A program made the translations under genes and the position numbers. A stretch of DNA of 64,000 bases from Fimbriimonadaceae bacterium (lineage in GTDB: Bacteria > Armatimonadota > Fimbriimonadia > Fimbriimonadales > Fimbriimonadaceae). Positions within the stretch are counted from its first letter, which is position 1; the number at the start of each line of letters is the position of its first letter. This document shows positions 2,988 through 29,558 of this stretch, piece by piece. Where the stretch lies: positions 62,001 through 126,000 of the forward strand of contig CP075365.1 in NCBI GenBank assembly GCA_019454125.1, in the 5' to 3' direction. The notes below the pieces were generated by a model. That model was not told the DNA's origin. It searched no databases and saw nothing but the letters and a program-made list of their open reading frames with translations.

Positions 2988-3075
2988 GGAGAGGTCGCAT
3001 AGTGGTCTAGTGCGCCGCACTCGAAATGCGGTGAGGTGCAAGCCTCCGTGGGTTCGAATCCCACCCTCTCCGCCA
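2988..3075 (+). tRNA. tRNA-Ser (anticodon CGA)
   Basis: The 88-nt gene has an acceptor stem GGAGAGG/CCTCTCC with discriminator G and encoded CCA (3073-3075). The anticodon loop CTCGAAA puts CGA at 3022-3024. A long variable arm (GAGG...CCTC) is typical of serine tRNA, and the T-arm is GTGGG-TTCGAAT-CCCAC. The gene is intact. Its 3' end is the integration site of the adjoining element. Confidence 0.97.
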
Positions 3076-4253: not shown

Positions 4254-4913
4254 ATGGAAAATCCATGCGCTTACCGAGCCCGGCGGGACTCAACCAATGC
4301 CTCGCCACTCCCGACTTATCCCGACCTCGACCCCAGTGTCAGAAGCGTCTTGGCGAACCTCAAGCGACTTGCATCCAGATATGCGAATCGGGAGAATTGG
4401 CTCACTTTCGACGACGCCCTGCAAACGCTGTTGCTCGGCGCTCAAACAGCACTTCAGAGGCTCGATAGGACATTGACCGTCCGTGAGCAGGGTCGATATA
4501 TTGTGGTTCGCTCAGAGAATTTCCTGAAGACACGAATTGACCTCGAATCTCACGTGTCATGTCCTTCGCACGTCACCGGTGCTCGGAATCGTGTACGAGA
4601 CGGTCGTGGCTCCGACGAAGACCACCAGGCTGCAGGGTTCCTCTCGTTCAAGAGGATTTTCTTTGGCGATTTCGAGGACGGTTGCCAAGCCTGCCAGTGC
4701 TCGTCCCTCGACGACATGGAGGGGGAAGCTCTGGAAAGGTGGGCGCTGGCTCAGCTTCCTGAACTCGATGCTGCGGTCTTTGAACTCGTTAGGCTGCTGC
4801 AGTTCAGCTATCAAGACGCTGCGAGAATCCTCGACATCTCGGTTGACCGTGTTCAGTCCCGCCTCAAAGCCGCCTCCAAGAGGCTCGCCGACTTGTTTGA
4901 CGACATCAACTAA
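4254..4913 (+). CDS. Sigma-70 region 4-like DNA-binding protein
   Basis: 219 aa. The C-terminal 60 residues (about 155-215) look like region 4 of an RNA polymerase sigma factor: LPELDAAVFELVRLLQFS, then the helix-turn-helix DAARILDISVDRVQSRLKAA. A region 2 (core-binding, -10 recognition) is not obvious in the N-terminal 150 residues, which hold a CQACQC cysteine cluster instead. It could be a degenerate ECF-type sigma factor or a sigma-like transcription regulator of the element. It is divergent from the preceding gene and convergent with the zinc-ribbon pair downstream. Confidence 0.5.
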   Translation: MENPCAYRARRDSTNASPLPTYPDLDPSVRSVLANLKRLASRYANRENWLTFDDALQTLLLGAQTALQRLDRTLTVREQGRYIVVRSENFLKTRIDLESHVSCPSHVTGARNRVRDGRGSDEDHQAAGFLSFKRIFFGDFEDGCQACQCSSLDDMEGEALERWALAQLPELDAAVFELVRLLQFSYQDAARILDISVDRVQSRLKAASKRLADLFDDIN

Positions 4914-7399: not shown

Positions 7400-8350
7400 A
7401 TGAACCAAATTCAGCCCATCCAATCCAGCGAAATCCAGCGCCTCGTCGTTGATGCGATTGACTATGCCCGCCAATCGAGAGCACCCGCCACGCTGAGGGC
7501 ATATCAATCCGACTGGAGACTTTTTGAGGAGTTCTGCGGCTCGCATGGACTTGGGGCACTTCCTGCTGTACCATCAACGGTATCGCTCTTCATCACAAAG
7601 CTCGCTGAAACTCATCGACCGTCCTCGATTCAGCGTAAATTGGCAGCAATCTCCGTGGCTCACAAGACAGCCGGTGTGCCATCCCCCATCGCAGCCGAAA
7701 TCGTGCATTCCACGATGTCTGGGGTGCGACGGGCAAAGGGCATGGCGAAAACTCAGAAGTCACCCATCCGGGCAAGACACTTGCGGGAGGGGCTTTCTCT
7801 GATGCGCTCGGACTTAAAGGGAGTGCGAGATGCGGCTATCATCCTCGTTTCCTACGCAGGTGCGCTTCGCCGCTCGGAAGTCGTAGGGCTTGACCTAGCT
7901 GACCTCACGTTTACCTCTGAAGGCGTCGTCTTGAACTTGACCCGCAGCAAGACCGACCAGGAGGGCTCAGGGGTGAAAGTCGCAATCAAAGCTGGGAACA
8001 GGGCGGACACCTGTCCCATCAGAGCGCTGCGGAACTGGATTACGGCGGCTGAACTCTCCGATGGAGCGCTCTTTCGTCCAATAACGAGAGGCGGACGCCT
8101 TGGGATGACACGGCTGTCCGACCAGACCGTTTGCGCCATTTTCAAAGAGTTTGCGCTTATTCTGGGACTCGACCCGAGAGACTACGGTGGGCACTCGGGA
8201 CGAGCAGGAGTTATCACCGATGGCTTTGCAGCGTCGGTCGCTCAAGCAGTCATAGCCAAACACTCTCGGCACAGGTCGAACGCTATTTCAGACTATCTGC
8301 GGGAAGCCACATTGTTCGAGCAAAACCTCAGCGGCTTGGTTGGCTTGTGA
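7400..8350 (+). CDS. Tyrosine-type site-specific recombinase (second in the element)
   Basis: 316 aa. An N-terminal SAM-like core-binding domain (about 10-110) is followed by the catalytic domain. Candidate active-site residues are Arg in GALRRSEVVGL, Lys in TRSKTDQEG, His-x-x-Arg in GGHSGRAGV, His in AKHSRHRS, and Tyr in ISDYLREATLF near the C-terminus. The set looks complete, so the enzyme is probably active. It is not next to an attachment repeat, unlike the integrase at the right end. It might resolve dimers, invert a segment, or be left from an earlier insertion. It has its own upstream region shared with the divergent DUF2293 gene. Confidence 0.88.
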   Translation: MNQIQPIQSSEIQRLVVDAIDYARQSRAPATLRAYQSDWRLFEEFCGSHGLGALPAVPSTVSLFITKLAETHRPSSIQRKLAAISVAHKTAGVPSPIAAEIVHSTMSGVRRAKGMAKTQKSPIRARHLREGLSLMRSDLKGVRDAAIILVSYAGALRRSEVVGLDLADLTFTSEGVVLNLTRSKTDQEGSGVKVAIKAGNRADTCPIRALRNWITAAELSDGALFRPITRGGRLGMTRLSDQTVCAIFKEFALILGLDPRDYGGHSGRAGVITDGFAASVAQAVIAKHSRHRSNAISDYLREATLFEQNLSGLVGL

Positions 8351-8521: not shown

Positions 8522-9883
8522 TCAAGCCTCAGACCACTCAAGGCTAGTTGGAATTCCCAACTCGCTACATTCCTGACTTACGACACCGGAGATTCTTCGT
8601 CTCAAGCAAGCTCGGTCTGAAGTGTCATGTGGATGGAGATGTAGCCCATCGAAGGTATTCACAAGGATGGTAAATCCATGTTTTCCTCTGCTTCGCTGAG
8701 CTAGTTCATAAGCCGCAAACATGATTCTCTGTTCGTAACTCTGCGACACTTGAGCCATGATGCTCTTAACATTGTCGCCTTTCGAGTCTGGAACAAGCGG
8801 AATTATCCTGCCCCAAGCGTCGGTGGCATAGCCCTCTGCACGAATCCTCCGCTTGACCTCCTCTCGACCTCTGAGTAGTGGATTGAAGAGACGGTGCTTC
8901 CGAAGCTCTCCCCAAAGTCCCCCTCGAATTTGTTCAGCCTTCTTTGGAAGGTTGACCCTGCCTCCGCCCGTATTCGACATGCCATAAAACAAGCAGAATA
9001 TCAACTCCTTGATTTGCTCTCTCGATTCGGACGGTAATCCAAGGTCTTCGATGATTTCATCGTATGGGCGCTCCGTAAATGAACAGCCAAACTCTCCAAG
9101 TTGCCATATAGCCACGTTAATCGCATACTGCGCCGCACGCAAATCGCACTTCATCCAGTCTTTACAAATGACCTCCCGAACGCACCGCTTCAATGAAGGC
9201 AGCATAGCTTTGTGAGCAGGGTAGATTCGGGCACTCCGTTTGACGGTCTTGTAGATTGGTTTGGGATGGGTCAGAAGGCGGGACAGGGTAGCCGCACAGT
9301 GCTTTCCTACCCCAGAGTTAATATCTCCCAGTTCCGCTGCGAGGGAAGCTGCCTCTTCCCAATGACGCTCGACGGCTGCAGTGAATCGGTTTGTAGGGAG
9401 GTCGTTCATGTATTGCGCCATTTCCACGGAAGCTTCGCAAGATGAATTGAGCACCGGTAACTCGTCGGGCACAATAGCCTTCGAGCCAGACACGAACTGT
9501 ATTCTCGGGGTTTGGCGTGTGCGGCGTTCTGCCTCCCAGAGCCCCGAAAGGGCTGTTGGAAGGGGCGAGTTCACGGTCTTTGAGAGGAACTTTCCCATTG
9601 AGGGACTGTATTCATGACCGCCAAGTGAGACTGCAAACACATGCGTTGAAAAGTCTTCTGCAATTCTTCTCACGCTGCCGTGCCCGCTGCCGAAGTGCCT
9701 TTGTCTGCCCATCCATTCGGAAAGCTCGTCCCTTGAGATGATGAGCTTCTCGTCATCGTCGAAGTGCACTCCGTAGAGCAGATACTGGAGGAACTCCCAT
9801 CGTCCCGGCTTTGAATCGAGAGCCGGATATAGTCTCAAAATCTCATCCCGAAACCATTGCGAGCAATACCGGATGACGCTCAC
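8522..9883 (-). CDS. Family-A DNA polymerase-like protein without an exonuclease domain
   Basis: 453 aa. The C-terminal half shows the order of family-A polymerase motifs: a motif-A-like strand with D247 followed by RAAQYAI, an O-helix/motif-B-like KELIFCLFYGMS (about 292-303), YATDAWGR (about 352-359), a QG-loop-like KSIMAQVSQSYEQRIMFAAY, and a motif-C-like VNTFDGLHLH with D412. No 3'-5' exonuclease motifs are seen. The N-terminal 240 residues are not recognised. The similarity is read by eye and is distant. The gene overlaps the AAA+ ATPase gene upstream by 4 nt (ATGA), suggesting one replication or repair module of the element. The alternative is a divergent single-subunit RNA polymerase-like or primase-like enzyme. 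Confidence 0.45.
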   Translation of the reverse strand: MSVIRYCSQWFRDEILRLYPALDSKPGRWEFLQYLLYGVHFDDDEKLIISRDELSEWMGRQRHFGSGHGSVRRIAEDFSTHVFAVSLGGHEYSPSMGKFLSKTVNSPLPTALSGLWEAERRTRQTPRIQFVSGSKAIVPDELPVLNSSCEASVEMAQYMNDLPTNRFTAAVERHWEEAASLAAELGDINSGVGKHCAATLSRLLTHPKPIYKTVKRSARIYPAHKAMLPSLKRCVREVICKDWMKCDLRAAQYAINVAIWQLGEFGCSFTERPYDEIIEDLGLPSESREQIKELIFCLFYGMSNTGGGRVNLPKKAEQIRGGLWGELRKHRLFNPLLRGREEVKRRIRAEGYATDAWGRIIPLVPDSKGDNVKSIMAQVSQSYEQRIMFAAYELAQRSRGKHGFTILVNTFDGLHLHPHDTSDRACLRRRISGVVSQECSELGIPTSLEWSEA

Positions 9884-10698
9884 GACTGTGACTCTCCATC
9901 TGTTGAGCGGTCTCGATTGCGGCGCTCCATCAACCTGTTCAAGTCTCGGAAGTAGGTTGCTCTGCTTCGTCCGGTTAGCCTCGCATACTCCTCAACCCTC
10001 TTTTCGGTCGGGATGTCTAGCGCCTGCAAATCGACGAGCAGTCGAGTGTTGTTGTCGATGCCCATCGTATCGAGGACAGTCCGCTGCCAATCCAGATTGC
10101 CTTTTCTCAACTGCGACGCCGTGATGTAGAGTCTTGCGCTGACGGTGCTGACATAGGGCAGCCATTTCCAGACAAAGTCAAGAACCTCTCGGTCGTCAAA
10201 CCAGGTCTCGACATACTTGTGGATGTCCTCGGGGCTAGGTGCAAAGTGAATGAGAAGTCCCCGGTCTTCAATGGCGGCGACATTTCGGTTCAAAGTGCGC
10301 CAGTCATTGGCAATGATGACAAATCGGCTCTTCGTCTCGAATTCAACTGGGACGCCCTCATCGCCGAGGTCACTATGTCTTGTTCGCCAAGATACGGTCT
10401 TGATTTCAGCCGTCTGGCAAGCTTGCTTGAGCAGTCGGATGAAAGCTCTGTCACCATATAGGGAGTCCACGTCGTCCAGAACGAACAGTTCATCTTGATG
10501 CTGATAGAGCAGCTTATAGAATTCGAATGCCGAGAGGTTCCCGTCGATGTGCTTGCCCGACCCATTGACCGCATTCTTGACAATCGAAGTTTTGGCAAGA
10601 CCGGGGTCGCCGACGAGAATGATATTGTTTGCGGTCAATGCGAAGTGCTCGATGGCTCTTTGAAGCTCTTTGTATGTGCAAATCGTGGTTTTCATCAC
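9880..10698 (-). CDS. AAA+ ATPase coupled to the polymerase-like gene
   Basis: 272 aa. Walker A is GDPGLAKTS (30-38), Walker B LFVLDDVD (71-78), and a sensor-1-like strand reads RFVIIANDW. The C-terminal 70 residues contain ARLTGRSRATYFRDLNRL, which looks like a helix-turn-helix for DNA binding. The fold is that of a small loader- or remodeller-type ATPase acting on DNA. The stop overlaps the polymerase-like start (ATGA, 9883-9880). The first codon is GTG at 10698 or the adjacent ATG at 10695. A helicase-loader or initiator role is inferred from the neighbour only. Confidence 0.7.
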   Translation of the reverse strand: MMKTTICTYKELQRAIEHFALTANNIILVGDPGLAKTSIVKNAVNGSGKHIDGNLSAFEFYKLLYQHQDELFVLDDVDSLYGDRAFIRLLKQACQTAEIKTVSWRTRHSDLGDEGVPVEFETKSRFVIIANDWRTLNRNVAAIEDRGLLIHFAPSPEDIHKYVETWFDDREVLDFVWKWLPYVSTVSARLYITASQLRKGNLDWQRTVLDTMGIDNNTRLLVDLQALDIPTEKRVEEYARLTGRSRATYFRDLNRLMERRNRDRSTDGESQS

Positions 10699-11141: not shown

Positions 11142-14100
11142 TCAGCGCCCGTCTGTGTAGGTCGAATTGAAATTCGTGTCCGACAGCCACTTTTTGAAAG
11201 CAGGGTTGTCGGAGAACTGTTTGAACAATTCCGTGTGGTCGGTAAGTAGCTCGACTAGCACCCGTTGCAGAGCCTTGTCGTGCTCAATCCGAGCGTTCTG
11301 CTTGTCGGAGTTGGCAATGGCGTTTTGATACGCCTTGTCCGCCGCCACCTTCGCTGGAATCTCCTGCGTGATGACCTCCTTTATCTTGTCTCCGTCCTTC
11401 CACTCGATATTCCCGAACTGGTCATTGAACGACTTGAGGATGTTGCTCAGCCTGTCAAGCTCAGGCTCAGGAGGGTGCCCTCCGCCTGCTGTTGGCACGG
11501 GCTCAATCTCGGAATCCTCGTCTGTCAGCGAAATCGAAAGCGCCGACCGAACCTCGACCCGATAACTGTCCATGTCGATGGACTCCAGAATTCCCTTGGA
11601 TAAGTCCTCCTCTTTAGGGGCTGGAAGTTTGGGAATGAGGAAATTCAGGAAGATGGACAGCCGTTCCCATGAGGCGATGCTGTAGGTCAGAACCGAGGCT
11701 AAGAACCCATAGGTGCGGACGAACGCCTTGGCTTTGCCCTTGAACTCAACCTGTCCATCCTCGTCCAGCAAGTCCAGATACGTGGCGACGCAGCCATCGA
11801 GAATCGGGTCAAGCGTGTCACGGTCGGCACCAGCGAGATAAAGCTCGACTAGCTGTCGAATGTCGGAATCGCTGTAAACCTGAGCGCCATCGAGGTCAGC
11901 CTTGAGGTCATGCAGCTTGTTCGGGTCAGTCTCACGAGCCAGAACGGTCGTGCGGTAGTAATCGTCGAACGCCATCTGAATCGTGTCGATGTCGTTGACA
12001 AAGTCCAGCACAAAGGTGTCGTGCTTTTTGGGGTGCGCCCTATTCAACCGTGAAAGAGTTTGAACAGCCTTGATTCCAGAGAGCGGTTTGTCCACATACA
12101 TGGTGTGGAGGAGTGGCTCGTCGTACCCGGTCTGGAACTTGTCGGCGCAGATTAGGAAGCGGTAAGGGTCTTCCTGAATCATCTCGGCAATCTTGTTGCT
12201 GGCAAATCCGTTCAGAGATGCCTCGGTCACCTTCTGACCGCCGTATTCATGCTCGCCAGAGAAGGCAACGATGGCTTTGTACGGGCTCTTGCGCTCCTTC
12301 AGGTAGTCCTGAAAAGCGTGGAAGTAGTCGATGGCTCTCTTGATGCTTCCCGTGATGACCATTGCCCTCGCCTGACCGCCAATCTTCTGCTTGGCAATCA
12401 CATGGTCGTGGAAGTGGTCAACCATGATTTCGCTCTTCTCCCGAATGGCGTGGGTATGTGACTCGACGTACTTGCGGAGCTTTCGCTGAGCCTTCCTGGA
12501 ATCGAACTCGGGGTCATCCTCGACGGTCTTGATGAGGTTGTAATAGGAGTTGACCGGCGTGTAGCTTTTGAGCACGTCCAGGATGAAGCCCTCCTGAATC
12601 GCCTGCTTCATCGTGTAGCTATGGAATGGTCGATGCTTGACCACATCTCCTTCGGGATAAGGCTCGCCAAAGACTTCCAAGGTCTTGTTCTTGGGAGTCG
12701 CAGTGAACGCAAAATATGAGGCGTTCGGCAGCATCTTCCGGGCTGCCATGATGCGGTTGATTTGGTCTTCCGTGTCTTCTTCGTCGTCCTCGGCTGAGGT
12801 GCCCGAGAGAGCAATGTTCATCTTCGCAGCGGTCTGACCGCCTTGGCTCGAATGCGCCTCGTCGATGAGGATGGCGAACGTGCTGTCCTTGTTCGCAGAG
12901 CCGATGTCGTCCAAGATGAACGGAAACTTCTGGACAGTCGTGATAATGATTTTCTTTCCGTTCTTGAGGAAATCTTTGAGTTGCCCCGAGCGCTCAGCAT
13001 GACCCACCACTGACCCAACTTGGGCGAACTGCTTGATGGTGTCCCGGATTTGTTTGTCGAGGATGACCCTGTCGGTCACGACGATGACGGAGTCAAAGAC
13101 CGGCACGGAGTCCTTCTCCAGACCGACAAGCTGATGAGCCAGCCATGCAATTGAGTTTGACTTGCCGCTTCCCGCCGAGTGTTGAATCAGGTAGCGCTTG
13201 CCAGACCCGTGCGTTCGTGTGTCCGCCAAAAGCTTCCGCACCACATCCCGCTGGTGAAATCTAGGGAAGATGAGGAGGCGCTTGACTTTGCCTGTCTTGG
13301 GGTCTTTCTCCTCAACCCGCTCAGCATAGTTTTCGATGATGTCGGTCAGACCTTCTTTGGTGAGTATCTCTTTCCACAGATAGTCCGTTTTGAGTCCATT
13401 GGGGTTCGGCGGGTTGCCAGCGCCATCATTCCAGCCTTTGTTGAATGGGAGGAACCAGGAAGCCTTGTCCCGGAGGTGAGTACAGAACCGAACCTCGGCG
13501 TCATCCACGGCGAAGTGAACCAGGCATCGAGCGAATTGAAAGAGCAGTTCACGACTGTCCCGGTCTCGCTTGTATTGCTGGACGGCGTCCTCGACCGTCT
13601 GCTTGGTCAGGCTGTTCTTGAGTTCGAAGGTCGCAATCGGTAAACCATTGATGAAAAGGCAGAGGTCGAGCGCAAGCTGGGTTTCATCCTTGCTGTAGCA
13701 GAGTTGCCTGGTGATGCTGAAGATGTTGGAGTCCCAGCGTTCCTTCGCCTTCTGGTTGCCCGGTGAGGGTGTCCCATAGAACAGTTCGACGTGCGCAGCT
13801 TGGTGAGAGACGCCTTTGCGAAGCACGTCTACGATTCCACGCTTGGCGATTTCTCCTTGAAGTCGGGTCAGAAACTGGGTTCTCTTTATTCCATCGGTGC
13901 CAAGGTCAAGCTGGGCAAACACCTTCGGTTGAGTCTGAGCGAGGAACTGAAGGAGGTAAGTCAGGTCAACCGCATATTCTCTACTGTAGTCTTGGGAGCG
14001 CCCCAGCACATAGCCAGCGCCACCGTAGCCAGTTGGGTTCTCTGCAATGCCTGGAGCGACCGGCTTGAGAATCTGCTCATTGGTGAGCCCAGTGAGGCTG

Positions 14101-14156
14101 CGAATGATGAGAAGTTCGAGTCCCTTCTCGCTGGTGTCGGTCAATTCAACCTCCAT
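11142..14156 (-). CDS. hsdR: Type I restriction enzyme, motor/endonuclease subunit R
   Basis: 1004 aa, normal length for HsdR. The nuclease domain shows D...FELKN in LCLFINGLPIATFELKN (PD-(D/E)xK type). The translocase domain has Walker A SAGSGKSNS, motif II ILIDEAHSSQGG, motif III FTATPKNK and motif VI QTLSRLNRAHP. HsdR cuts DNA after ATP-driven translocation by the HsdM-HsdS complex. The gene is last in the minus-strand cluster, about 9.7 kb from hsdM. Its start overlaps the PIN gene by 16 nt, so it is translated with the HTH-PIN pair rather than directly with hsdM. All motifs look intact. Confidence 0.97.
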   Translation of the reverse strand: MEVELTDTSEKGLELLIIRSLTGLTNEQILKPVAPGIAENPTGYGGAGYVLGRSQDYSREYAVDLTYLLQFLAQTQPKVFAQLDLGTDGIKRTQFLTRLQGEIAKRGIVDVLRKGVSHQAAHVELFYGTPSPGNQKAKERWDSNIFSITRQLCYSKDETQLALDLCLFINGLPIATFELKNSLTKQTVEDAVQQYKRDRDSRELLFQFARCLVHFAVDDAEVRFCTHLRDKASWFLPFNKGWNDGAGNPPNPNGLKTDYLWKEILTKEGLTDIIENYAERVEEKDPKTGKVKRLLIFPRFHQRDVVRKLLADTRTHGSGKRYLIQHSAGSGKSNSIAWLAHQLVGLEKDSVPVFDSVIVVTDRVILDKQIRDTIKQFAQVGSVVGHAERSGQLKDFLKNGKKIIITTVQKFPFILDDIGSANKDSTFAILIDEAHSSQGGQTAAKMNIALSGTSAEDDEEDTEDQINRIMAARKMLPNASYFAFTATPKNKTLEVFGEPYPEGDVVKHRPFHSYTMKQAIQEGFILDVLKSYTPVNSYYNLIKTVEDDPEFDSRKAQRKLRKYVESHTHAIREKSEIMVDHFHDHVIAKQKIGGQARAMVITGSIKRAIDYFHAFQDYLKERKSPYKAIVAFSGEHEYGGQKVTEASLNGFASNKIAEMIQEDPYRFLICADKFQTGYDEPLLHTMYVDKPLSGIKAVQTLSRLNRAHPKKHDTFVLDFVNDIDTIQMAFDDYYRTTVLARETDPNKLHDLKADLDGAQVYSDSDIRQLVELYLAGADRDTLDPILDGCVATYLDLLDEDGQVEFKGKAKAFVRTYGFLASVLTYSIASWERLSIFLNFLIPKLPAPKEEDLSKGILESIDMDSYRVEVRSALSISLTDEDSEIEPVPTAGGGHPPEPELDRLSNILKSFNDQFGNIEWKDGDKIKEVITQEIPAKVAADKAYQNAIANSDKQNARIEHDKALQRVLVELLTDHTELFKQFSDNPAFKKWLSDTNFNSTYTDGR

Positions 14157-14740
14157 TCGGCTGGAGTGACTTCAGGCACCAGAATTCCCAGCGCTTCTCC
14201 AACGTGAGCGGAGAAACTAGGAACCGTCCAAGCCAACCTGCCCAGAGTTACCTCAACGCTCTTTCCACGGTCTCCCGAGAGGCGATAGAGCTTGTCAACG
14301 ACAACTCCCCTGTCGTGCTCAAAAAGAGTGATTAGATACGTTCCAGGGTGAACAGCAACAATGCCCCAGGGGTCGAGTGCCTCGGAAGGGAAGTGCTTGA
14401 TATTCGTCGTCACGATGGTCTCGACCTTCTCATGAATCGCCGCTGCCAACACATGGCGGTCGTCTTCGTTATTGTCGCACTTGCACTCCAGGTGCTCGAA
14501 CCCAGAAACCATCGCTTCCTCAAAGAAGTTCGTAGCAACCTCTCGGCGCTTTGCAACCACTTCGGGTCTCCAACTCAGCTTGTCTCGACAAGTCCGGTCA
14601 ACTTCGTCCCAAATCCGCTCCGTCCACTTAGGTAGGAGAAGGCGGGGTTCTTCAGACAGGCGGAGATAGAGGTCGGCGACCGAAGCCTCTGCGAGTACGC
14701 AGGCGTCAAGGACGACGGCAAAGTCCGCCCTGACCGGCAT
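14141..14740 (-). CDS. PIN-domain protein (probable toxin-type RNase)
   Basis: 199 aa. The PIN fold is indicated by an N-terminal strand with the first acidic residue (VVLDACVLAEAS), a central KCDNNEDDRHVLAAAI block with the middle acidic residues, and a VETIVTTNIKHFP strand. PIN toxins cleave RNA and are held by a cognate antitoxin. The gene starts 1 nt after the HTH gene's stop and overlaps hsdR by 16 nt. The HTH-PIN pair is therefore a toxin-antitoxin-like module embedded in the R-M operon. The C-terminal 60 residues extend beyond the usual PIN length. Confidence 0.8.
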   Translation of the reverse strand: MPVRADFAVVLDACVLAEASVADLYLRLSEEPRLLLPKWTERIWDEVDRTCRDKLSWRPEVVAKRREVATNFFEEAMVSGFEHLECKCDNNEDDRHVLAAAIHEKVETIVTTNIKHFPSEALDPWGIVAVHPGTYLITLFEHDRGVVVDKLYRLSGDRGKSVEVTLGRLAWTVPSFSAHVGEALGILVPEVTPAEWRLN

Positions 14741-15193
14741 TTACTCTTCCGACTCCAAGCGTCGGTCGTAGACTCCTTCCTCGTCCATCAACTTGGTCAG
14801 GTCAGTCAGTGCCTTGCTTCGCTCCTTGTTCCTAGCCTCCTGAAACACCAGGAGGTCTTTGAACATGATGCGCCTGTGGGTTCCGACTCGATGGAACGGA
14901 ATCCTGCCGTTTTCAAGCAGCCTCAGAAGGAATGGGCGAGACATGCCCAAGAAGTTCGCCGCAGCCTGAGTCGTGAAAGCCTCGTCCTCAGGCATGAGCA
15001 AAATTGCTTGCTTGCGCTTCATTGAGTCCACGATGAACAGCAGGAGGTCGTTGAGGGGCTTCGGTAGGGCGATGCGCTCGCCATGAAGACCAACGAGGCT
15101 GGCTTCACCCGTGTGGATGAGTCCGTCAAGCTGCTTCAGAATCTCGGGCGAGATTTCAGAGGGCTCCAATCTTCGGTCTTGTAGGCTGCTCAT
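14741..15193 (-). CDS. Excisionase-type HTH protein, likely antitoxin of the PIN protein
   Basis: 150 aa. Residues of about 75-125 form a MerR/excisionase-like winged helix (FTTQAAANFLGMSRPFLLRLLENGRIPFHRVGTHRRI), as in the DNA-binding antitoxins that precede PIN toxins in many genomes. The PIN gene follows immediately. A TATAAT (15205-15200) lies 6 nt from the ATG, so the HTH-PIN-hsdR part can be transcribed, perhaps leaderless, independently of the upstream operon. Autoregulation at this promoter is an inference from family behaviour. Confidence 0.8.
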   Translation of the reverse strand: MSSLQDRRLEPSEISPEILKQLDGLIHTGEASLVGLHGERIALPKPLNDLLLFIVDSMKRKQAILLMPEDEAFTTQAAANFLGMSRPFLLRLLENGRIPFHRVGTHRRIMFKDLLVFQEARNKERSKALTDLTKLMDEEGVYDRRLESEE

Positions 15194-15276: not shown

Positions 15277-15372
15277 CCATCAAATGACCATCAAATAAGA
15301 ATCGGGGTCAACTTGAACCTAAAACTCGCTCTGAGAAGGCTGCCAATCAAATACCCATCAAATAAACTCGGG
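15277..15372. repeat. Imperfect direct repeat at the 3' end of the second hsdS
   Basis: Two copies of a 30-bp unit containing CCATCAAATAA and ending in CGGG lie at 15277-15306 and 15343-15372. The second copy includes the hsdS stop codon. This may be a small tandem duplication of the gene end. Confidence 0.45.
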
Positions 15373-16650
15373 CTTGCATCGAACCTCCCTTTGCCCCGTC
15401 ACCACGTCAGAAACTATCCTCGCCCGATACTCCCGCAGCAGAGCCAACTCCTTCGCCAACCTCCTCTTCGCACGAAGGACAGGACGAACGTGGTCATCAA
15501 ACCAGCGCACGGCCGTGCGCTGGCTCTCCAATGAAGACACCGCAACCTGAAGTTCCGACAGGCGGCTCGTGCGAATCCCCACCGCACCGGCACCGGTCGC
15601 AAGTCGGCGAAGCTCATCCTGGAACGCACCCGACCGGCACACCATCAGCAGAAACTCAGGAACCACCAAATCCAAACGAGGGCGGAAGGCGACCACTCGT
15701 TGGGCGATGGAGATGTCCGGTCGGTCAGCCAGAGCGAAATGCCCCATTGGAGCCTCAGTCGTCATCAGCAGGTCTCCGACCTCGGGTCGTCGGGCATTCT
15801 CAAATTCGTGAGACTCTGAGACGAAGTCCACCGACACCTCATAGTCCACATAGCCTTGGCGGACGTTCTTCGAGGTCACCAGACGCCGCCCAGAGTCGGT
15901 TCGGTTGGGAGTCGTGCCTCGGTTGTCGATGCGGGTCGAGAAGCACCGGGTGAACGGGAGTCTCAGAATCTCACCGTTTGCCGTGTTCGTGTCCACGACA
16001 TGCTGCAGCAAAGCCTGTTCCTGTTCGTCCAAGAGCGCCAGCATCCGTTCCTTGGCAGCGACCAGGCGGTTCATCTTCCCGTCGAACACCGCCACACGCC
16101 GAACGATGGCAAGCTGCTCATCGGGCGGAGGCAGAGGAATCTTCAGTGAGGCGAAGTTGCCAAACAGCAAGTCAGCGACCCGTTCTCGCACGCCACGGGC
16201 AGCCGCAAAGAGGAAGCCGTTCCGAGCCAGGTCACGAAACAAGAGAGCCAAGTAGTGTGCATCGGCTCCAGGAAGGGTCGTGCAGACGGCGCAGGCAGGC
16301 GTGGTCTTTCCATCCGAGTCGGAAACCCCAATGGCTCCGGCATAGGCATCGAGGTCGTGAATTACCAGGTCACCCTCTCGGACTCCCTGGTAACCGACCT
16401 CAAAGAGCGACTCCATGATGCCCTGTGGCTTCTTGGGATGACGCAACGTGACCTCGCCGTCTCGGAAGCAAGTGACCACTTCGTCGCAGAGTCTCACCGG
16501 TCGCTGCATGCGCCGCAAGATGGTCTTCGGTCGAACGATGCGCCAGTGGGCTGGGCATGAAGCAAGCCAAGGCAGATTCGTAGCCTGACTTAACTGAACA
16601 TGCCCTTGCTGAGTCTCGGGCTCAGGCTTCGAAAGGAGGACGACGCTCAA
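15358..16650 (-). CDS. hsdS: Type I restriction specificity subunit S, second copy
   Basis: About 430 aa. HsdS subunits have two target-recognition domains, each followed by a helical spacer. Here the first ends with PLPPPDEQLAIVRRVAVFDGKMNRLVAAKERMLALLDEQEQALL, in shortened form IPLPPPDEQ; the second ends in the AKRRLAKELALLREYRARIVSDVVTG helix. The start is not obvious: the frame is open to 16773, but the 44-aa ORF occupies that stretch. I prefer the TTG at 16650, which has AAGGA about 10 nt upstream and lies 7 nt after the small ORF. The sequence is clearly different from the other hsdS, so the two probably confer different target sites. Confidence 0.88.
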   Translation of the reverse strand: MSVVLLSKPEPETQQGHVQLSQATNLPWLASCPAHWRIVRPKTILRRMQRPVRLCDEVVTCFRDGEVTLRHPKKPQGIMESLFEVGYQGVREGDLVIHDLDAYAGAIGVSDSDGKTTPACAVCTTLPGADAHYLALLFRDLARNGFLFAAARGVRERVADLLFGNFASLKIPLPPPDEQLAIVRRVAVFDGKMNRLVAAKERMLALLDEQEQALLQHVVDTNTANGEILRLPFTRCFSTRIDNRGTTPNRTDSGRRLVTSKNVRQGYVDYEVSVDFVSESHEFENARRPEVGDLLMTTEAPMGHFALADRPDISIAQRVVAFRPRLDLVVPEFLLMVCRSGAFQDELRRLATGAGAVGIRTSRLSELQVAVSSLESQRTAVRWFDDHVRPVLRAKRRLAKELALLREYRARIVSDVVTGQREVRCKPEFI

Positions 16651-16657
16651 TAGTGTT

Positions 16658-16792
16658 TCAGTCCTTGCCGTCGTTGTCCCGAGGAGGTTTGATTTCCTTG
16701 GTCTCACCCTTATCGCCGCCCTTCTCGACGACCTCACTTTCCATTGCCACCTGTCGAGGCGGCATATCTTCATCAGTTTCTGGATTGAACAT
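16658..16792 (-). CDS. Small acidic/basic ORF between the membrane protein and hsdS
   Basis: 44 aa, starting MFNPETDEDMPPRQVAMES and ending PPRDNDGKD. It begins 2 nt after the stop of the three-TM gene and ends 7 nt before the TTG start of the second hsdS, exactly filling the gap. Charged and probably disordered. The MPPRQ..M segment resembles the C-terminal tail of the preceding protein (MPPRQPAMDGG), so it could be a duplicated tail or a real small subunit. Confidence 0.4.
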   Translation of the reverse strand: MFNPETDEDMPPRQVAMESEVVEKGGDKGETKEIKPPRDNDGKD

Positions 16793-17527: not shown

Positions 17528-18925
17528 CTAGTTCTCTGTTTCCTCGTCCTCAAGCTCCAAGTCCTCCGGCGAGTGGGCATCAATGGCTTCGAAGAGCGAT
17601 TCTTCGACCTCGGGCAAGTCGAGGTGGCGGACATCGAGTTGACCGGTCACCACGTCAGCGACGAGGCGGGTGCGGTATTCACGAATGAAGTCGATTTCAG
17701 ACCTCGTCAGTTGTAGTGCGCGGTCGATTTCTCGGCTCTCTTCTGCAATCCGAGTAACTATTCCGGCTTGTTCAGACAGCGGTGGCTCTATGATGACGCA
17801 GTCCCGAATTCGCCCTTGGCTGATGTTCGGGTCTTTGCGTGTTCCATCCGCACCCACCATCCAGAAAGGGCGTTGAAGTTGCATGAACCTAAAGAGGAAT
17901 TCAGGTTGGAATCTCTTGTTCGGAAGGATTCCGCAAACAGCCTGATTGAGCGCCGCTGGGAATGTGAGGAGTCCATTCTTGCCAATTGTTCCAGCGCCGC
18001 CGTACATGGCGACCAATACCGTTCCTGCTGAAACGACTTTGCAGGCTGTATCCCGAAGCGCCCGGTCGGTGATTCCAATTTCGAAGGAATCCATGATGTC
18101 GTTGGTCAGGTCGGTCGTTCGAATCCACGGAGTTGAACCACCGTAGTAAAGCTCCTGCATGGAGGTGTTTGGCGTTCCTCCACTGGTAGTTCTGAATGCC
18201 CACTTTACTTTCACCTCATTCCAGTGGGCTGGAATCTCTTCCAGCCAGTCGATGCCGGAGGGTTTGAGGGGGACGGTGGGGTCGAGACCTCGGGTGACGG
18301 CACGGTGGATGATGGCTTGCTTCTGCTCGTTCAGCAACTCGATGAGCCGCCGCTTGGTCTTGATAAGCTGATTCACCCGATGGTCGAGGTGGCGAATGAA
18401 GCGCACAATTTGCGCCTGCTCGTCGGGAGGCGGAACGGGGATTGGCAGGCGTCGGAAGTCCACCCAAGACAGATTCTGCCGTAGACCTGACCCTAACCCA
18501 TAGAACACCTTCTTGATGTCGTATGCGTGAAGCAACAGGTGGGCATAATCCTCCGTCAGCTTGCCCTTCGTTTCGAGGCACATATACGCTGAGGTGATGA
18601 TGCCTCGGTCTTTCGCCTGACCCACTCGCAGACTGACATGGTCGTTCTGTAGGTCGGTCGGTCGAATGATGATGTTGCCTGGTTCGACAATCTGGTAGGT
18701 CTCGAATGATTCGGGCACGAGTCCACGCAGCTTGTCCTGTGGCTTGATGACCACTCGACCGTAGCTGAGAGAGAGCACTGTGGGTTCAACCAGACCGATG
18801 TTCTTGACCTGCCGTTCCTGGAGGACAGCCAATCCGGGCTCTACTTGCCAGCGGCTCGGGAACTCTCCAAGCCACTCAAGAGCCGTTGGCTGGAAGTCCG
18901 AATTCTGCTTGAGCGCCGTGCTCAC
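17528..18925 (-). CDS. hsdS: Type I restriction specificity subunit S, first copy
   Basis: About 465 aa. Both half-repeats are clear: WLGEFPSRWQV opens the first and WLEEIPAHWNEVKV the second. Each is followed by a spacer, LPIPVPPPDEQAQIVRFIRHLD and EPPLSEQAGIVTRIAEES. HsdS sets the DNA target of the methylase and nuclease. I chose the GTG at 18925, whose G-T-G-A overlaps the stop of the upstream GHKL gene; an upstream ATG at 18982 lies inside that gene. The acidic C-terminal tail (about 40 residues after VTGQLDVRHL) is longer than usual. Confidence 0.95.
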   Translation of the reverse strand: MSTALKQNSDFQPTALEWLGEFPSRWQVEPGLAVLQERQVKNIGLVEPTVLSLSYGRVVIKPQDKLRGLVPESFETYQIVEPGNIIIRPTDLQNDHVSLRVGQAKDRGIITSAYMCLETKGKLTEDYAHLLLHAYDIKKVFYGLGSGLRQNLSWVDFRRLPIPVPPPDEQAQIVRFIRHLDHRVNQLIKTKRRLIELLNEQKQAIIHRAVTRGLDPTVPLKPSGIDWLEEIPAHWNEVKVKWAFRTTSGGTPNTSMQELYYGGSTPWIRTTDLTNDIMDSFEIGITDRALRDTACKVVSAGTVLVAMYGGAGTIGKNGLLTFPAALNQAVCGILPNKRFQPEFLFRFMQLQRPFWMVGADGTRKDPNISQGRIRDCVIIEPPLSEQAGIVTRIAEESREIDRALQLTRSEIDFIREYRTRLVADVVTGQLDVRHLDLPEVEESLFEAIDAHSPEDLELEDEETEN

Positions 18926-21900
18926 GCCTTCACCTCGCCGGTCTCGACGTTGACCTGGCTGACCATCGCAATCTCTCTCCATCCTTCATCGAAAGTGAAG
19001 GTTCGAGCATTCCCAGCAGGGTCTTGGATTTTCAGGATTCGAGGTTCCTCAGAAGTGGCGTTTTCGACGATATAGAGCCAGTAGCGGTAGCCCTTCTCAA
19101 GAGCCATCTCGAACTGCGCCTTCGACATCCCGACCGGATGATTCGCCAACGTGCCGACCATCGCCTTGACCTCAATCCAGCGGTTCGTGTGACCGTCGTC
19201 GTCCGTGCCAAAGAGGTCATAGCCCTTGTTGCCTGCTGGCGTCCGCTGCAGGTCTGATTCGAGCGTGAGGATGTGGTCGATGGCGACCGCCTCGACCTTC
19301 ATTCGCTGCTCATGGGTCTCGGAATCCGAGAATTCATCGTCCTCGACCTCGACGGGATGAGTCTTCAGATAGCTGAAGAACTCTCGACGACCGGCATGGG
19401 AGTTCTTGCTGGTCGAGGAACTAGACCCACCTGCGCCGCTAGAGGAGCCACTGCCAATTGACCTTGAGCCCCCCACATTTGAGCTACCACCTCCGCCTCC
19501 TGCACCCGTTCCCTCACCCTGGTTGCTGCCACTACCAGCACTGGCTCCAGAATCTCCTGCATCGCCGCCCTCGTCACCTTGATTGTTGTTATCGCCCTCT
19601 TCGTTCTCGTCTTCCTCAACCCCAATGACTAACCCAAGGCGCTGAAGGACTTCTTCGTCGCTAAGCCCGCTCTTCTTGATTCGGCTTAAGACATCCAAGT
19701 TCAAGCCAGTCGCCTCAGCAAGCTGAGCTAGGGCAGATGGGCGGAACTTGAGTGCAGATTGGAGAACGGCGTTCGGTTCCCATGGTGGCTCGATGTGCTC
19801 GAACACAACCTCATCTGGACTAGAAAGTTTGCCCTCGGGAGTCGGAATCCACTCTGAAGCCTTAAGGATGCGAACAAACTCAGCGTCATACTTTGTGCTG
19901 CGTCCGGTTCCATAAAACCAATGGTACGTTGCCCTCAGAACAGCCTCACGTCGATATTCGACCAAATCACCTAGAGCATCCCAAAGGATTTGGCAACGCA
20001 CCACTGCCTGCTCAAACGGCAGTTCAGCAATGCGCTTAAGGAGGGCATTTAGACGCCCAATCGTCCGGTTGTCATGAGATTCACCGCCCGTTGAGGTTGC
20101 ATAGCCTGCCATCTGCCGGAGTTCTGCACGTTCGCTCTCATCTGGCTTGGCGTCTGTCGTGACGGTTTTCAGAGTTCGTGAAACCCCGCTGGCAAGCAAA
20201 ACTTCCCGCATATCCTCCCCCTGCAGACCTGTCACTGACTCGTCGATGAAGCGGACGCCAGATACGCCTTCGAATAGCGTCTTGAGGCGCTCCGTCGGAA
20301 GGTAGCACTGAGTGGGCACAACCCACTTCCGCACCCCAGTATCATCAACTGAAGGAATCCAATAGGCAGTGCGAAGCTCATTCGTGAGGCGCTCTCTGGT
20401 GTTTCTGTTTTCGAATGCGGACTGAATCGCTTGCAGATGCTCTCGATAGAGTTCGAGGTCGTCATGCTCCATTCCATCCCCGTACAACGGCAGAATATTG
20501 ACGATGACCCCGTCCACTGGGTCAGGCTTGGTGAGCTTGAGGCTGTTCTGAAGGAAAGCGAATGCGTCTTCCGAAGCACAAACAGTGGAGCGAACAGTTG
20601 GGAACCCACTTGTCGAGGCGGAAGGAAGATAGGCATTGTGCCTTTCGCCACTTCGAGCCGCAACGTGAGAACCATCTTCAAGCCGCGCCCAAGGTTTGTT
20701 GAGGTTTGCAGCGACCTTCCAGAGATAGGGCAATCCCCCAAGATATTCGTAGAGGTGCTCAATCCAAGAATCAGGTTGAGCCGTAAGGAACTGAGGCGTC
20801 ACCCTCGTTACGAAGCCTTGCGGTGTTAACTCTGTGATACCGTGCTCGTTTCGCAGGTAGTCGCTTACCGCAGACATCCGCTCCAAGGTGAGATTTGGGT
20901 CTAGCCATTCAAGCTCAGTGTCGGACTCGAATAGTGCTTGCAGTTGCTCCGGGCTCACCAGTTCGATAAGCTCTCGTCGTGTTAGCTTAACTTCTCCAAC
21001 TCTCGCAAAGCTGCCGCCGCTAGTGGGAAGGAGGGGAATCTGTTCAAGGGCTTCAGCGAAGGCGTCATACAAGGGACGGAACATCGAGCCCTCAGGAAAG
21101 TCGTCCTCGTCAATCGGCATCCCGCTGAGGACATCGACCGAAAGGGCGTCCATGTCTCTGAGCACACCCAACGACTCTACAAGCAACGAAGCAGTCTCTT
21201 CGATGAGATGCTGATTCCAGGTGGCTTTTGGGGGAACGTTGTCCCGAGCCGGAGTGGTTCGATAGGGAGCTTGAAGAACTACCCCAAGATTCGTTTGGAC
21301 GCTCGTCGGAAAGAACGCTGCCAGTCTTGAGTCGGCAACGGGTTTCAGCTTGAGTTCGCCCGGTGGCGATGCCAAGTCCACTGAGTAGGCAATCTCAACC
21401 GCTCCAACCTCTACGCCGTCGGATTCGACAGGTCGAGAGAAGACGAGCCACTGCTCTTCTGCAAGTTCTCCGCCCGTGTTACTGGTGCCAATGAGGGTCA
21501 CTCGCCTCAATCCTGGCTTCAACTCGACCGACTCACGGCAGTACGTGCCGCTTGCACCGTCCTCGATGCTCCAATCTACTTCCTCGACGTGACGGAGAAA
21601 CAGCAGGGTTTTCGCATCCAGCTTTTCGAGCCCTTCACTGATTTCACCGAATGCTGGACTGTCTTCAGGGCGGAAAGGGAACCAGAAGCTGGTCTCGCCA
21701 TCTTGCTGTTCGCAGGGCTGCAATTCAACGGGATGGACATAGTCTTCGATGGCAAAGTGTTGTCCTGCCGAGCGAATCTCCGGTCGGTCGGTGACGGCAT
21801 AAACCGACTTGAAGCCAATACCAAATCGCCCGATTGCGGTCAGTTCATCCTTCTTGGTGCTCTTGTTAATGCCGCAGATTCCTCGAACATCTGCTTCGTC

Positions 21901-22137
21901 GAACGGCTTGCCCTTGTGGGAGACTCTGAGCCCCTCACGACTTAGCTCGAACCGAACCGAGCGTGAGCCGGTGCTGGCTCGCTTTCGGATTGCATCCTCG
22001 GCGTTTTGGAGAAGCTCGAAGACGAAGTGAGTTCGTTCGTGGTACAGGTTGGCGAGCAGTTCAGGAGCCCATTCGCCGACATCCGTGCCATAGCGCTTGA
22101 GGTTTTCTTCACTGAGGGCTGCGTAGTCAATCTGCAT
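18922..22137 (-). CDS. NO VEIN/sacsin-like GHKL ATPase with C-terminal DUF3883 nuclease-like domain
   Basis: 1071 aa. The N-terminal 200 residues are an Hsp90-type GHKL ATPase: ELLQNAEDA (N box), the GICGINKSTK and IGRFGIGFKSVY loops (G boxes). A long unassigned middle follows. An acidic Gly/Ser-rich linker (about residues 840-925) precedes a C-terminal DUF3883 domain with GYDLFGTDDDGHTNRWIEVKA, a D...ExK arrangement typical of PD-(D/E)xK nucleases. The plant NO VEIN protein has the same two end domains. Placed between the PIN-like gene and hsdS and coupled to hsdS (GTGA), it is most likely a defence component. Whether it works with HsdMRS or independently cannot be told from sequence. Confidence 0.8.
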   Translation of the reverse strand: MQIDYAALSEENLKRYGTDVGEWAPELLANLYHERTHFVFELLQNAEDAIRKRASTGSRSVRFELSREGLRVSHKGKPFDEADVRGICGINKSTKKDELTAIGRFGIGFKSVYAVTDRPEIRSAGQHFAIEDYVHPVELQPCEQQDGETSFWFPFRPEDSPAFGEISEGLEKLDAKTLLFLRHVEEVDWSIEDGASGTYCRESVELKPGLRRVTLIGTSNTGGELAEEQWLVFSRPVESDGVEVGAVEIAYSVDLASPPGELKLKPVADSRLAAFFPTSVQTNLGVVLQAPYRTTPARDNVPPKATWNQHLIEETASLLVESLGVLRDMDALSVDVLSGMPIDEDDFPEGSMFRPLYDAFAEALEQIPLLPTSGGSFARVGEVKLTRRELIELVSPEQLQALFESDTELEWLDPNLTLERMSAVSDYLRNEHGITELTPQGFVTRVTPQFLTAQPDSWIEHLYEYLGGLPYLWKVAANLNKPWARLEDGSHVAARSGERHNAYLPSASTSGFPTVRSTVCASEDAFAFLQNSLKLTKPDPVDGVIVNILPLYGDGMEHDDLELYREHLQAIQSAFENRNTRERLTNELRTAYWIPSVDDTGVRKWVVPTQCYLPTERLKTLFEGVSGVRFIDESVTGLQGEDMREVLLASGVSRTLKTVTTDAKPDESERAELRQMAGYATSTGGESHDNRTIGRLNALLKRIAELPFEQAVVRCQILWDALGDLVEYRREAVLRATYHWFYGTGRSTKYDAEFVRILKASEWIPTPEGKLSSPDEVVFEHIEPPWEPNAVLQSALKFRPSALAQLAEATGLNLDVLSRIKKSGLSDEEVLQRLGLVIGVEEDENEEGDNNNQGDEGGDAGDSGASAGSGSNQGEGTGAGGGGGSSNVGGSRSIGSGSSSGAGGSSSSTSKNSHAGRREFFSYLKTHPVEVEDDEFSDSETHEQRMKVEAVAIDHILTLESDLQRTPAGNKGYDLFGTDDDGHTNRWIEVKAMVGTLANHPVGMSKAQFEMALEKGYRYWLYIVENATSEEPRILKIQDPAGNARTFTFDEGWREIAMVSQVNVETGEVKA

Positions 22138-22153
22138 CGAACCTCCTCAACTC

Positions 22154-22672
22154 TCAGCCTTCCTTGGGCACGATGTCCAACTTGTAGCCACACTCGTTCA
22201 GCCAACCGTAGAAGTCAACACACTTGACCCCAAGGTGGTCACAGGCATCAGGAACCTTTAACCGCTGCTTCTCTGGTTTCTTGCGTTTCTCCATCGTGAC
22301 GACAATGGCTTCGCCTGCAAACAGGTCTTGATTAGGATTCCGGTGATGGGCAAGAGCCGTCGCAACCAAGAAGTGGTCGGCATCGACAGACTCGGTCTTG
22401 GTGGCGTCAACAAAATCCGGTATGGCAGCGACTTCCCGAATAACTTTCATAGTCTCGTTTGTCACAGGCTCAAAGCACTTCTCCTTGTGCTGGTCAGCCC
22501 ATTCCTTAGCGACACCGCCTTTCATTTCACGGAATACGTGTTCGCACACCCTTATCCTTCCAGTCTTTACCTGGGACTCGGCAAGCTCGTGAATCTTGGG
22601 GATTATTGTCGATGGGAATTGCTCGTTGAGCGTGATGATGATATTCGCATCCCAATAGAAGATGGCTTCCAT
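22154..22672 (-). CDS. DUF4411 PIN-like protein
   Basis: 172 aa. It opens with FYWDANIIITLNEQFP, has a conserved Glu in HVFREMKGG, an acidic SVDADHFLVATALA block and an IVVTMEKRKKPEKQRLKVPDAC segment when read in pieces, matching the DUF4411 family as I remember it. That family has a PIN-like fold and commonly follows an XRE-ImmA/IrrE gene, as here. TGATG joins the two genes (shared base at 22672). A toxin-type RNase is the likely role, with the XRE-peptidase as partner or regulator. Confidence 0.75.
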   Translation of the reverse strand: MEAIFYWDANIIITLNEQFPSTIIPKIHELAESQVKTGRIRVCEHVFREMKGGVAKEWADQHKEKCFEPVTNETMKVIREVAAIPDFVDATKTESVDADHFLVATALAHHRNPNQDLFAGEAIVVTMEKRKKPEKQRLKVPDACDHLGVKCVDFYGWLNECGYKLDIVPKEG

Positions 22673-23904
22673 CAGTCCACCACCTTGCGCCGACTAAGCT
22701 CAAGTTCTAGCGCTTCGAACTGGTAATCCCGCAGACCTAAGAGGTCTTGCGCATCGGAGAATTCAAGCGTGCCCGAAGACATCGCCTGAAGCACTCGTCG
22801 GGTAAGGGTCTCACCACGAGCCGACAGGGAGTCGGCAACAGGCGATGCCCCTTTGCGTTCCTTGCCAAGCAGCTTGTTCTTCTCCTCCCGAGCCTTTTGC
22901 TTCGCCTCCCGAAGTTCAGACTCTTCTTCGTCGATTTTTCTCCAAGCTGAGAATACGGCAGTGGACTTGGACTTGGGAACTTTGCCCGATTCGATAAGCC
23001 TGTGAAGCAAAACGTATTTGCTGACCCGGAATTTCTTTGCATACTTATCCACGAGCCCAGCGTCCGTCGCTCCTTCTTTGGAGATGTCAGCAACGGCGGC
23101 TTGAACCTCCTTCGCCCCCGGTGGCAGAAGTAGCGCCGAAGCGAACCTGTTGCAGAACGTCTCCGTTCTCTTTACTGCGTCTCGACCAGTCTGAATACGG
23201 TCGGCTCCTAAATCGGAAACCACCGACTGTCGCAAGCACAAGTGCGCTAACTCATGGAAGAGTGTAAAGACCTGTTGGGACTTGTAGCCTTCTAAGTTGA
23301 AACCAACCAATGGGAAGCGGGGATGCCAAATAGCAAATCCCAACGCCTGCTCTCGTTCAACTCTGAATCCGAATGTGAGGACGCCAGTCAGGAAGAGTGC
23401 GTGCCTCCACTCTCGTAAACCTCGATTTTCTAGTTTGAACTTCTTTTGCTGAGCTAAGGTTACGCCCAAGGCTGTTCGCATTTCGTCAGCCCGCACAACG
23501 GGGTCGTCGCTGATTTGGAAGGCAGGCAGGTTTGAAGTCCACTCAGAAAGGACATCTTCCCAGTCCTCATCCAATCGCGACTGAAGGTACCGTGCTCGCC
23601 GAATATCGAGAACGAGGTCTGCTGAGAAACTCCCTTTGCTTCGGTTGCCCACCGTTCTGTAATCCAGCAGGGGCTTGGGTTCAGAAGGTTCTTCGGGCAT
23701 GAAGAAGACAATGCAGGGTCGCTTGACCTTGTTCGCTATCCTTTCAATTTGGCGAAGAGTCGGAAAGGAAACGCCAGATTCCCATTCCCGATATCTCTCG
23801 ACTGAAACGTCAGCAACCTGAGCCAACTCCTCTTCAGTTCGAAGCGAAGCTTTGCGAGCCCAGACCAGCACCTCCTTTGTGATTGGTGCTAACACGCTGC
23901 TCAT
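22672..23904 (-). CDS. XRE HTH-ImmA/IrrE metallopeptidase
   Basis: 410 aa. The N-terminal helix-turn-helix (EELAQVADVSVERYREWESGVSFP, about 24-48) is of Cro/CI type. The peptidase domain has the zinc motif HELAH in FTLFHELAHLCLR, with a nearby Arg/Glu-rich stretch. The ImmA/IrrE family cleaves repressors during stress or induction. It overlaps hsdM by 4 nt upstream (ATGA) and DUF4411 downstream (TGATG), so its output is tied to the methylase. It may control the toxin-like partner or the operon; this is inferred. Confidence 0.88.
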   Translation of the reverse strand: MSSVLAPITKEVLVWARKASLRTEEELAQVADVSVERYREWESGVSFPTLRQIERIANKVKRPCIVFFMPEEPSEPKPLLDYRTVGNRSKGSFSADLVLDIRRARYLQSRLDEDWEDVLSEWTSNLPAFQISDDPVVRADEMRTALGVTLAQQKKFKLENRGLREWRHALFLTGVLTFGFRVEREQALGFAIWHPRFPLVGFNLEGYKSQQVFTLFHELAHLCLRQSVVSDLGADRIQTGRDAVKRTETFCNRFASALLLPPGAKEVQAAVADISKEGATDAGLVDKYAKKFRVSKYVLLHRLIESGKVPKSKSTAVFSAWRKIDEEESELREAKQKAREEKNKLLGKERKGASPVADSLSARGETLTRRVLQAMSSGTLEFSDAQDLLGLRDYQFEALELELSRRKVVD

Positions 23905-29537: not shown

Positions 29538-29558
29538 AATCCCTCCCTCTCCGCCACC
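29538..29558 (+). repeat. Right attachment repeat (attR)
   Basis: 20 of 21 bases match 3057-3077 in the tRNA-Ser 3' end; the last 14 are identical. Host-type, GC-rich sequence resumes just after it. Confidence 0.8.

Follow-up and report, generated by a model that had tools for sequence, protein, structure and literature searches.

A predicted nuclease-free family-A polymerase of the TV-Pol kind, overlapping an AAA+ ATPase gene in a tRNA-Ser integrative element of Fimbriimonadaceae

The window analysed here is a stretch of 64,000 nucleotides that belongs to a single-contig genome of 2.65 Mb from a Fimbriimonadaceae bacterium. Two genes on its minus strand are considered. POL (8522-9883) starts with GTG and encodes a protein of 453 residues, predicted from its profile, fold and catalytic residues to be a minimal TV-Pol-like family-A polymerase. 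The second gene (9880-10698) encodes an AAA+ ATPase of 272 residues with a C-terminal HTH-like segment. Both open reading frames had been proposed in a sequence-only reading of the stretch, whose coordinates turned out to be exact. It also gave correctly the overlap of 4 nt. The overlapping letters are GTGA, in which the start GTG of POL and the stop TGA of the ATPase gene are merged (9883-9880). The identical overlap is retained in a related element of another genome (G088); the POL-ATPase operon is real and kept.

Both genes are carried by an integrative element of about 26.5 kb (3064-29558), delimited by an att direct repeat, by blastn and by GC content. Its integration target is a tRNA-Ser(cga) gene (2988-3075, plus strand, found with ARAGORN), the 3' end of which forms attL, and attR (29545-29558) is an exact copy of that end, the 14-bp repeat thus starting at 3064 and at 29545. 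In blastn comparisons of the window with G088 or with a third genome, G015, similarity begins exactly at the tRNA-Ser gene and ends at 29556, and the GC content is 54.8% within the element versus 65-67% in the flanks. The repeat of the G088 copy measures 18 bp at its own tRNA-Ser(cga), and that of the G015 copy 17 bp, matching its own tRNA-Ser(tga). Since the three copies occupy two different tRNA-Ser genes, the element moves. The tRNA-Ser gene is present in nearly all relatives, but its flanks there are non-syntenic and a direct empty site was not found among them. Two tyrosine recombinases are encoded: int1 (7400-8350, plus strand; PF00589, E 2.2e-7), convergent with POL, and a second one beside attR (28136-29410, minus strand; PF00589 at G000:C1:90205-90495, PHROG integrase E 2.3e-24), which is probably the element integrase.

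The cargo includes type I restriction-modification (R-M) genes, all on the minus strand: the restriction subunit HsdR (11142-14156; PF04313, PF18766 and PADLOC REase_I), an HsdS-like specificity subunit (15358-16773) and a second HsdS (17528-18982), both with PF01420 and PADLOC matches, and the methyltransferase HsdM (23901-25871; PF02384, PF12161). Several other genes of the element deserve mention. A PIN-like protein and an HTH_17/mads_1-like protein, possibly a toxin-antitoxin pair, are encoded between HsdR and HsdS (14141-15193, minus strand). Inside the R-M cluster, between the HsdS and HsdM genes, lies the gene of a 1071-aa protein with Sacsin-like ATPase and NO VEIN C-terminal domains that matches the PADLOC TmtA models with E 9e-83 (18922-22137, minus strand). 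Within the same cluster a DUF4411 gene is followed by an HTH/peptidase M78 gene (22154-23904, minus strand), possibly another toxin-antitoxin-like pair. The left end holds the gene of a sigma-70 region 4 protein (4254-4913, plus strand), which is 87% identical in G088 and possibly the element's own regulator.

The three copies of the element have not fared alike. That of G015 (contig C6, L052/L053), in the different tRNA-Ser gene, is decaying: POL and the ATPase gene are pseudogenes and about 4.4 kb including int1 is deleted, with hsdR and hsdM still open. Between the window and G088, identity amounts to 98% for HsdR, 96% for HsdM and 90% for int1 and the ATPase, versus 51% for POL. The first 40 residues of POL are 90% identical and the remainder about 50%, with a sharp break, and comparable divergence is found only in the second HsdS (37%) and in the HTH_17/mads_1-like gene (55%). 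Judged from these sequences, the divergence of POL between otherwise near-identical elements looks like allele exchange; in plasmid replication proteins, such an exchange would change compatibility.

As a single sequence, POL gave nothing significant in Pfam, PHROG, NCBIfam or PADLOC, and its best meaningful sequence match in the PDB was Klenow, with E 0.5 over the O-helix. A profile of the 17-member POL family, by comparison, matched solved family-A polymerases with E values from 7e-9 to 1e-6, including Pol nu (6.7e-9) and Taq (5.7e-8) together with Pol theta and Klenow. The structure prediction that had been suggested as a check was carried out with AlphaFold2 from four sequences, giving a mean pLDDT of 75.5 and values of 85-94 in much of the palm and fingers. 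Foldseek returned fragments of Klenow and Bst Pol I as best matches of this model. By VIA-align, the model was superposed on family-A DNA polymerases with Z scores of 14.5-16.7 (Pol theta 16.7, T7 DNA polymerase 15.9, Klenow 15.6, over about 290 residues), no RNA polymerase being among the 50 matches listed. These alignments start at residues 137-151 and run to full length (for example 137-453, 139-453 and 144-453), so the thumb begins near residue 140. The N-terminal 240 residues had been called unrecognised, which was too long, since residues from about 140 to 240 align with the thumb and only about the first 140 are unrecognised. The domain-profile search found no nuclease model in POL or in the ATPase and no proofreading domain in POL, as had been supposed for the exonuclease. 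Profile and model thus both point to a family-A polymerase core of thumb, palm and fingers with no nuclease domain.

The catalytic residues agree with this assignment. The aspartates expected at about positions 247 and 412 are D247 of motif A (DLRAAQ; codon 9143-9145, minus strand) and D412 of motif C (FDG; codon 8648-8650, minus strand), each invariant in 17/17 relatives. Likewise invariant in the 17 aligned proteins are Y211, R219, R236, K292, G301, Q381, E384 and G413, and Q252 and Y296 occur in 16 each. The Arg of the hairpin before the palm, R219, is also found in all three aligned TV-Pols and all five aligned Pol I sequences. In the fingers motif [RK]xxxK, the position four residues before the invariant K292 is R in two proteins and K in 15; no column matching the conserved fingers aspartate of TV-Pols was assignable in the 17-protein alignment. 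The steric-gate position, Glu in Pol I, is Q in 16 proteins and H in one, and the motif C aspartate is always followed by G (DG versus the DE of Pol I). As far as can be judged from the alignment, these two changes could alter the activity of POL. Taken together, family profile, fold and residues bear out the polymerase reading well beyond chance.

In the ATPase, Walker A (GDPGLAKT) and Walker B (DDVD) motifs are accompanied by N131 as sensor Asn and R146 as Arg finger, and all of these are unchanged in six relatives. The HTH-like segment at its C-terminus is retained in the five of them that are not from phages. The Walker motifs and an HTH-like helix had been noticed beforehand. By profile it is nearest to the RFC subunits RFC5/RFC3, and it matches PHROG_1250 with E 2e-15; its AlphaFold2 model, with pLDDT 46, is too low in confidence to interpret. 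Its relatives include the T4-like NrdC.10, a G007 protein with an integrase as neighbour, a G011 protein next to type I R-M genes, and one encoded directly after the annotated replication initiator RepA on the planctomycete plasmid pK2D_1 (L065:1-2510). The suggestion that POL and the ATPase form one machine stands as far as their overlapping operon is kept. Against it, the pair is limited to one element lineage in three genomes, and the relatives in G011 and G007 come without POL, the one on the planctomycete plasmid being next to RepA. Because the pairing is confined to the three copies of this element, the polymerase family at large does not have this ATPase as its partner.

POL relatives were found by whole-genome searches in 9 of 201 related genomes and in 20 of 291 genomes of the phylum, the last six of these 20 being weak (E about 1e-4); five of the six, with frames of 870-990 aa, are probably host Pol I, and the sixth is a 73-aa frame with stops. 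Besides contigs of Fimbriimonadaceae and other Armatimonadota, relatives are present on plasmid pDEIPE01 of Deinococcus peraridilitoris and on four Synechococcus elongatus plasmids, and the 17 aligned proteins are mostly 16-31% identical to the POL of the window. Phages searched by tblastn and viral contigs scanned for patterns yielded no relative. The Rep protein CyRepX1 of cyanobacterial plasmids, which we take to be the 1121-aa protein of pSYSX, was considered as possible kin and rejected, no profile match being obtained.

At 6/16 POL loci of Armatimonadota an integrase is encoded within 3.5 kb (0.23 expected), and at 7/16 a type I-like N6-methyltransferase within 15 kb (0.37 expected); these counts are not fully independent, as three of the loci are the same element. 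No ParA-type gene was found near POL in Armatimonadota. POL is encoded beside ParA/ParB on circular Synechococcus plasmids of 24.4-31.6 kb. In the ~24-kb S. elongatus plasmids its neighbours are ParA and ParB, a recombinase and CRISPR-Cas genes, and no Rep is annotated; these plasmids share a conserved 366-aa protein weakly resembling a DnaD-like helicase loader (E 0.002). The 31.6-kb plasmid pIITB7_1 carries POL, ParAB, CyRepA1 and DISARM. Comparing the loci L047, L048 and L049, the ~24-kb plasmids have a related backbone and differ in their type I CRISPR-Cas systems, the 31.6-kb one having DISARM. One of the 24.4-kb plasmids is pMAS of strain UTEX 3055, matched by size and strain, which has been described with a plasmid maintenance region (PMC9239245). 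Only two-copy repeats at chance level were found in a search for iterons or origin-like repeats near POL in the window and the plasmids, and plasmid GC skew was uninformative, except that in pIITB7_1 it reaches its minimum immediately before POL, on the upstream side.

A family of transposon and virus polymerases, TV-Pol, was defined by Iyer, Abhiman and Aravind in 2008, who placed one member in an element of phage Ma-LMM01 (PMC2579912). We presume that this is gp030 of the phage, which adjoins transposases, and it was compared with POL together with two plasmid relatives, from Calothrix and Polaromonas. These last TV-Pols are unannotated or misnamed: that of Calothrix plasmid6 (13.7 kb) crosses the start of its record (L085:12455-13693 plus that start) and has no entry in the gene table, and that of Polaromonas pH8NP1 (11.2 kb; L086:6095-7600) occurs together with RepA. 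With hhalign, the POL family matched the three TV-Pols with Prob 98.2 and E 3.5e-14, and host Pol I with Prob 96.9 and E 1.5e-10. The homology to the Ma-LMM01 protein rests on this profile-profile match; the 17-member profile gave no match by whole-genome search of the Ma-LMM01 record and a weak one by local search. Three signatures, namely the Q/H steric gate, QxxE and an (H)DG motif C, are present in 17/17 POLs and 3/3 TV-Pols, the Pol I counterparts being the steric-gate Glu, QGTAAD and DE. In the tree, Pol I forms a fully supported group, and long branches leave unsettled how POL, TV-Pols and the Synechococcus proteins are placed relative to one another. Since the three signatures are common to TV-Pols and absent from Pol I, POL is best placed in the TV-Pol group, though unrecognised by any profile library searched: it is a new, divergent member of this kind and not a new kind.

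Like other TV-Pols, POL is a predicted minimal thumb-palm-fingers core with two palm Asp and no fused or linked nucleases, has an Arg before motif A and a basic residue followed by K in the fingers, and is found in mobile elements that also carry tyrosine recombinases and R-M genes, the nearby HsdR gene being a known type of TV-Pol neighbour. It differs in having no fused or adjacent D5-type helicase, which is a trait of a subset of TV-Pols and not a required one, its partner being another type of AAA+ protein, with an HTH and nearest to RFC. Moreover, the Armatimonadota, Deinococcota and Synechococcus lineages are absent from the 2008 paper (PMC2579912), and identity across most of the POL group is just 16-31%. 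The CcPol-MP/PolA-SSB primases of SCCmec and other elements of Bacillota (PMC7581432, PMC10061031) are also family-A enzymes devoid of a 5' nuclease, encoded in an operon with an ATPase on integrative elements with recombinases and R-M-type cargo. However, the operon studied here has two genes, ATPase and POL, and no OB-fold SSB gene. The partial exonuclease domain of those primases is not recognised in POL, and the ATPase is nearest to RFC by profile and not recognised as a helicase of the Cch2 type. Both recombinases are here of the tyrosine type as opposed to large serine recombinases, which according to Rice 2023 are found in PolA-SSB elements "in most cases". With Pol I (PolA1), POL shares the polymerase-domain fold, the metal-binding aspartates and the O-helix K and Y/F, but its 453 residues include neither a 5'-3' nor a 3'-5' exonuclease; HDE is replaced by (H)DG (FDG in the window), the E710 position is Q (Q252), and QxxE stands in the region of Q849. 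Pol I-like genes are present in related genomes separately from POL. Pipolins are likewise integrative elements and plasmids with their own polymerase, which is of family B, unlike POL by fold and profile (PMC7385651). A 2026 survey of bacterial polymerases distinguishes PolA1, PolA2, PolA3 and a minor PolA1-like group and, in the section considered here, describes no nuclease-free group resembling POL (PMC12926913).

We think it rather probable that POL, as a TV-Pol-type enzyme devoid of nucleases, serves a replicative phase of the tRNA-Ser element, in which the ATPase would be the initiator or a loader. The integrase would excise the element as a circle, the AAA+/HTH ATPase may act as an origin-recognition or helicase-loading factor, and POL would synthesize a primer or the initial part of the new strand at the element origin, by analogy with CcPol-MP, a TV-Pol relative able to prime DNA at a putative origin of SCCmec in vitro (PMC7581432); host replicases would then complete the copy. 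The polymerase fold, the catalytic residues, the mobile-element polymerase family, the ends of the element and the plasmid relatives beside partition genes are observed; excision, priming, replication and interaction of POL with the ATPase we infer. A self-replicating phase, already suggested by the sequence-only reading, is the best-supported role, as the element has well-defined att ends and relatives occur on circular plasmids where ParAB is encoded alongside. POL is not necessarily the initiator, as pIITB7_1 has CyRepA1, pH8NP1 has RepA and the 24-kb plasmids encode the weakly DnaD-like protein. Further points against the replicative reading are that the search around POL gave no origin-like repeats, that the operon includes no SSB-like partner of the CcPol-MP kind, that the steric-gate and motif C changes could affect activity, and that the ATPase accompanies POL in a single lineage.

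Other roles have to be weighed against this one. POL could fill in DNA at transfer or integration, making DNA that enters as a single strand double-stranded or repairing gaps before or during integration, as has been proposed for the related PolA-SSB primases (PMC10061031). The integrases of the element and the lack of a proofreading domain in POL would suit such a task, conjugation genes not being recognised among the annotated ones. Nevertheless, we find it unlikely, since relatives reside on stably maintained circular plasmids with ParAB and a one-off entry function fits a partition neighbourhood less well. Another alternative is an anti-phage defence in which POL would act with the type I R-M genes; defence by DNA synthesis had also been considered in the sequence-only reading. 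The excess of N6-methyltransferases near POL and the ATPase relative beside R-M genes in G011 speak for it. However, the accompanying defence genes change from type I R-M to CRISPR-Cas types and DISARM, and POL stays with recombinase and partition genes; R-M genes are common cargo of TV-Pol elements anyway (PMC2579912). PADLOC has no model for POL or the ATPase, and the fold of POL is that of family A and not of a reverse transcriptase. We regard this defensive role as quite unlikely.

It has also to be asked whether POL makes RNA or is otherwise non-canonical, as a primer-only primase or a transcriptase, or is catalytically crippled, because its motif C is DG instead of DE and its steric-gate Glu is Gln. 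T7-like RNA polymerases likewise have no second motif C carboxylate, and both substitutions are general in the family (Q, or H in one, for the motif A E, and G after the motif C Asp, in 17/17 relatives). Yet the metal-binding and O-helix residues are all conserved among relatives mostly 16-31% identical, which argues for activity, E384 of QxxE is a new invariant acid, and the closest folds among the matches listed are DNA polymerases. This seems to us very improbable.

Returning to replication of the element, a broader and tentative proposal is that of a replicon class, possible though doubtful at present, in which the classical Rep would give way to a family-A primase-polymerase devoid of nucleases, together with a loader of the AAA+/HTH or the DnaD-like type, the POL allele being exchanged between near-identical elements as a compatibility determinant. 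It would comprise integrated elements and free plasmids of Armatimonadota, Deinococcota, Cyanobacteriota and, via the TV-Pol relatives, Pseudomonadota.

No biochemically studied TV-Pol other than CcPol was known to Bebel et al. 2020 (PMC7581432), and even in the case of SCCmec the purpose of replication of such elements is not understood (PMC7581432, PMC10061031). The Q/H, QxxE and DG signature provides a simple finder for enzymes that escape the libraries searched here (Pfam, NCBIfam, PHROG and PADLOC). POL relatives are encoded on pMAS, a described plasmid of 24.4 kb (PMC9239245) whose cyanobacterial host is genetically tractable; ParAB is adjacent there and no Rep is annotated, which makes a part of TV-Pols in replicon maintenance testable by ordinary genetics. 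In our opinion, the value of the finding is that little-studied polymerases are linked to the definite ends of an element and to plasmids of a tractable host.
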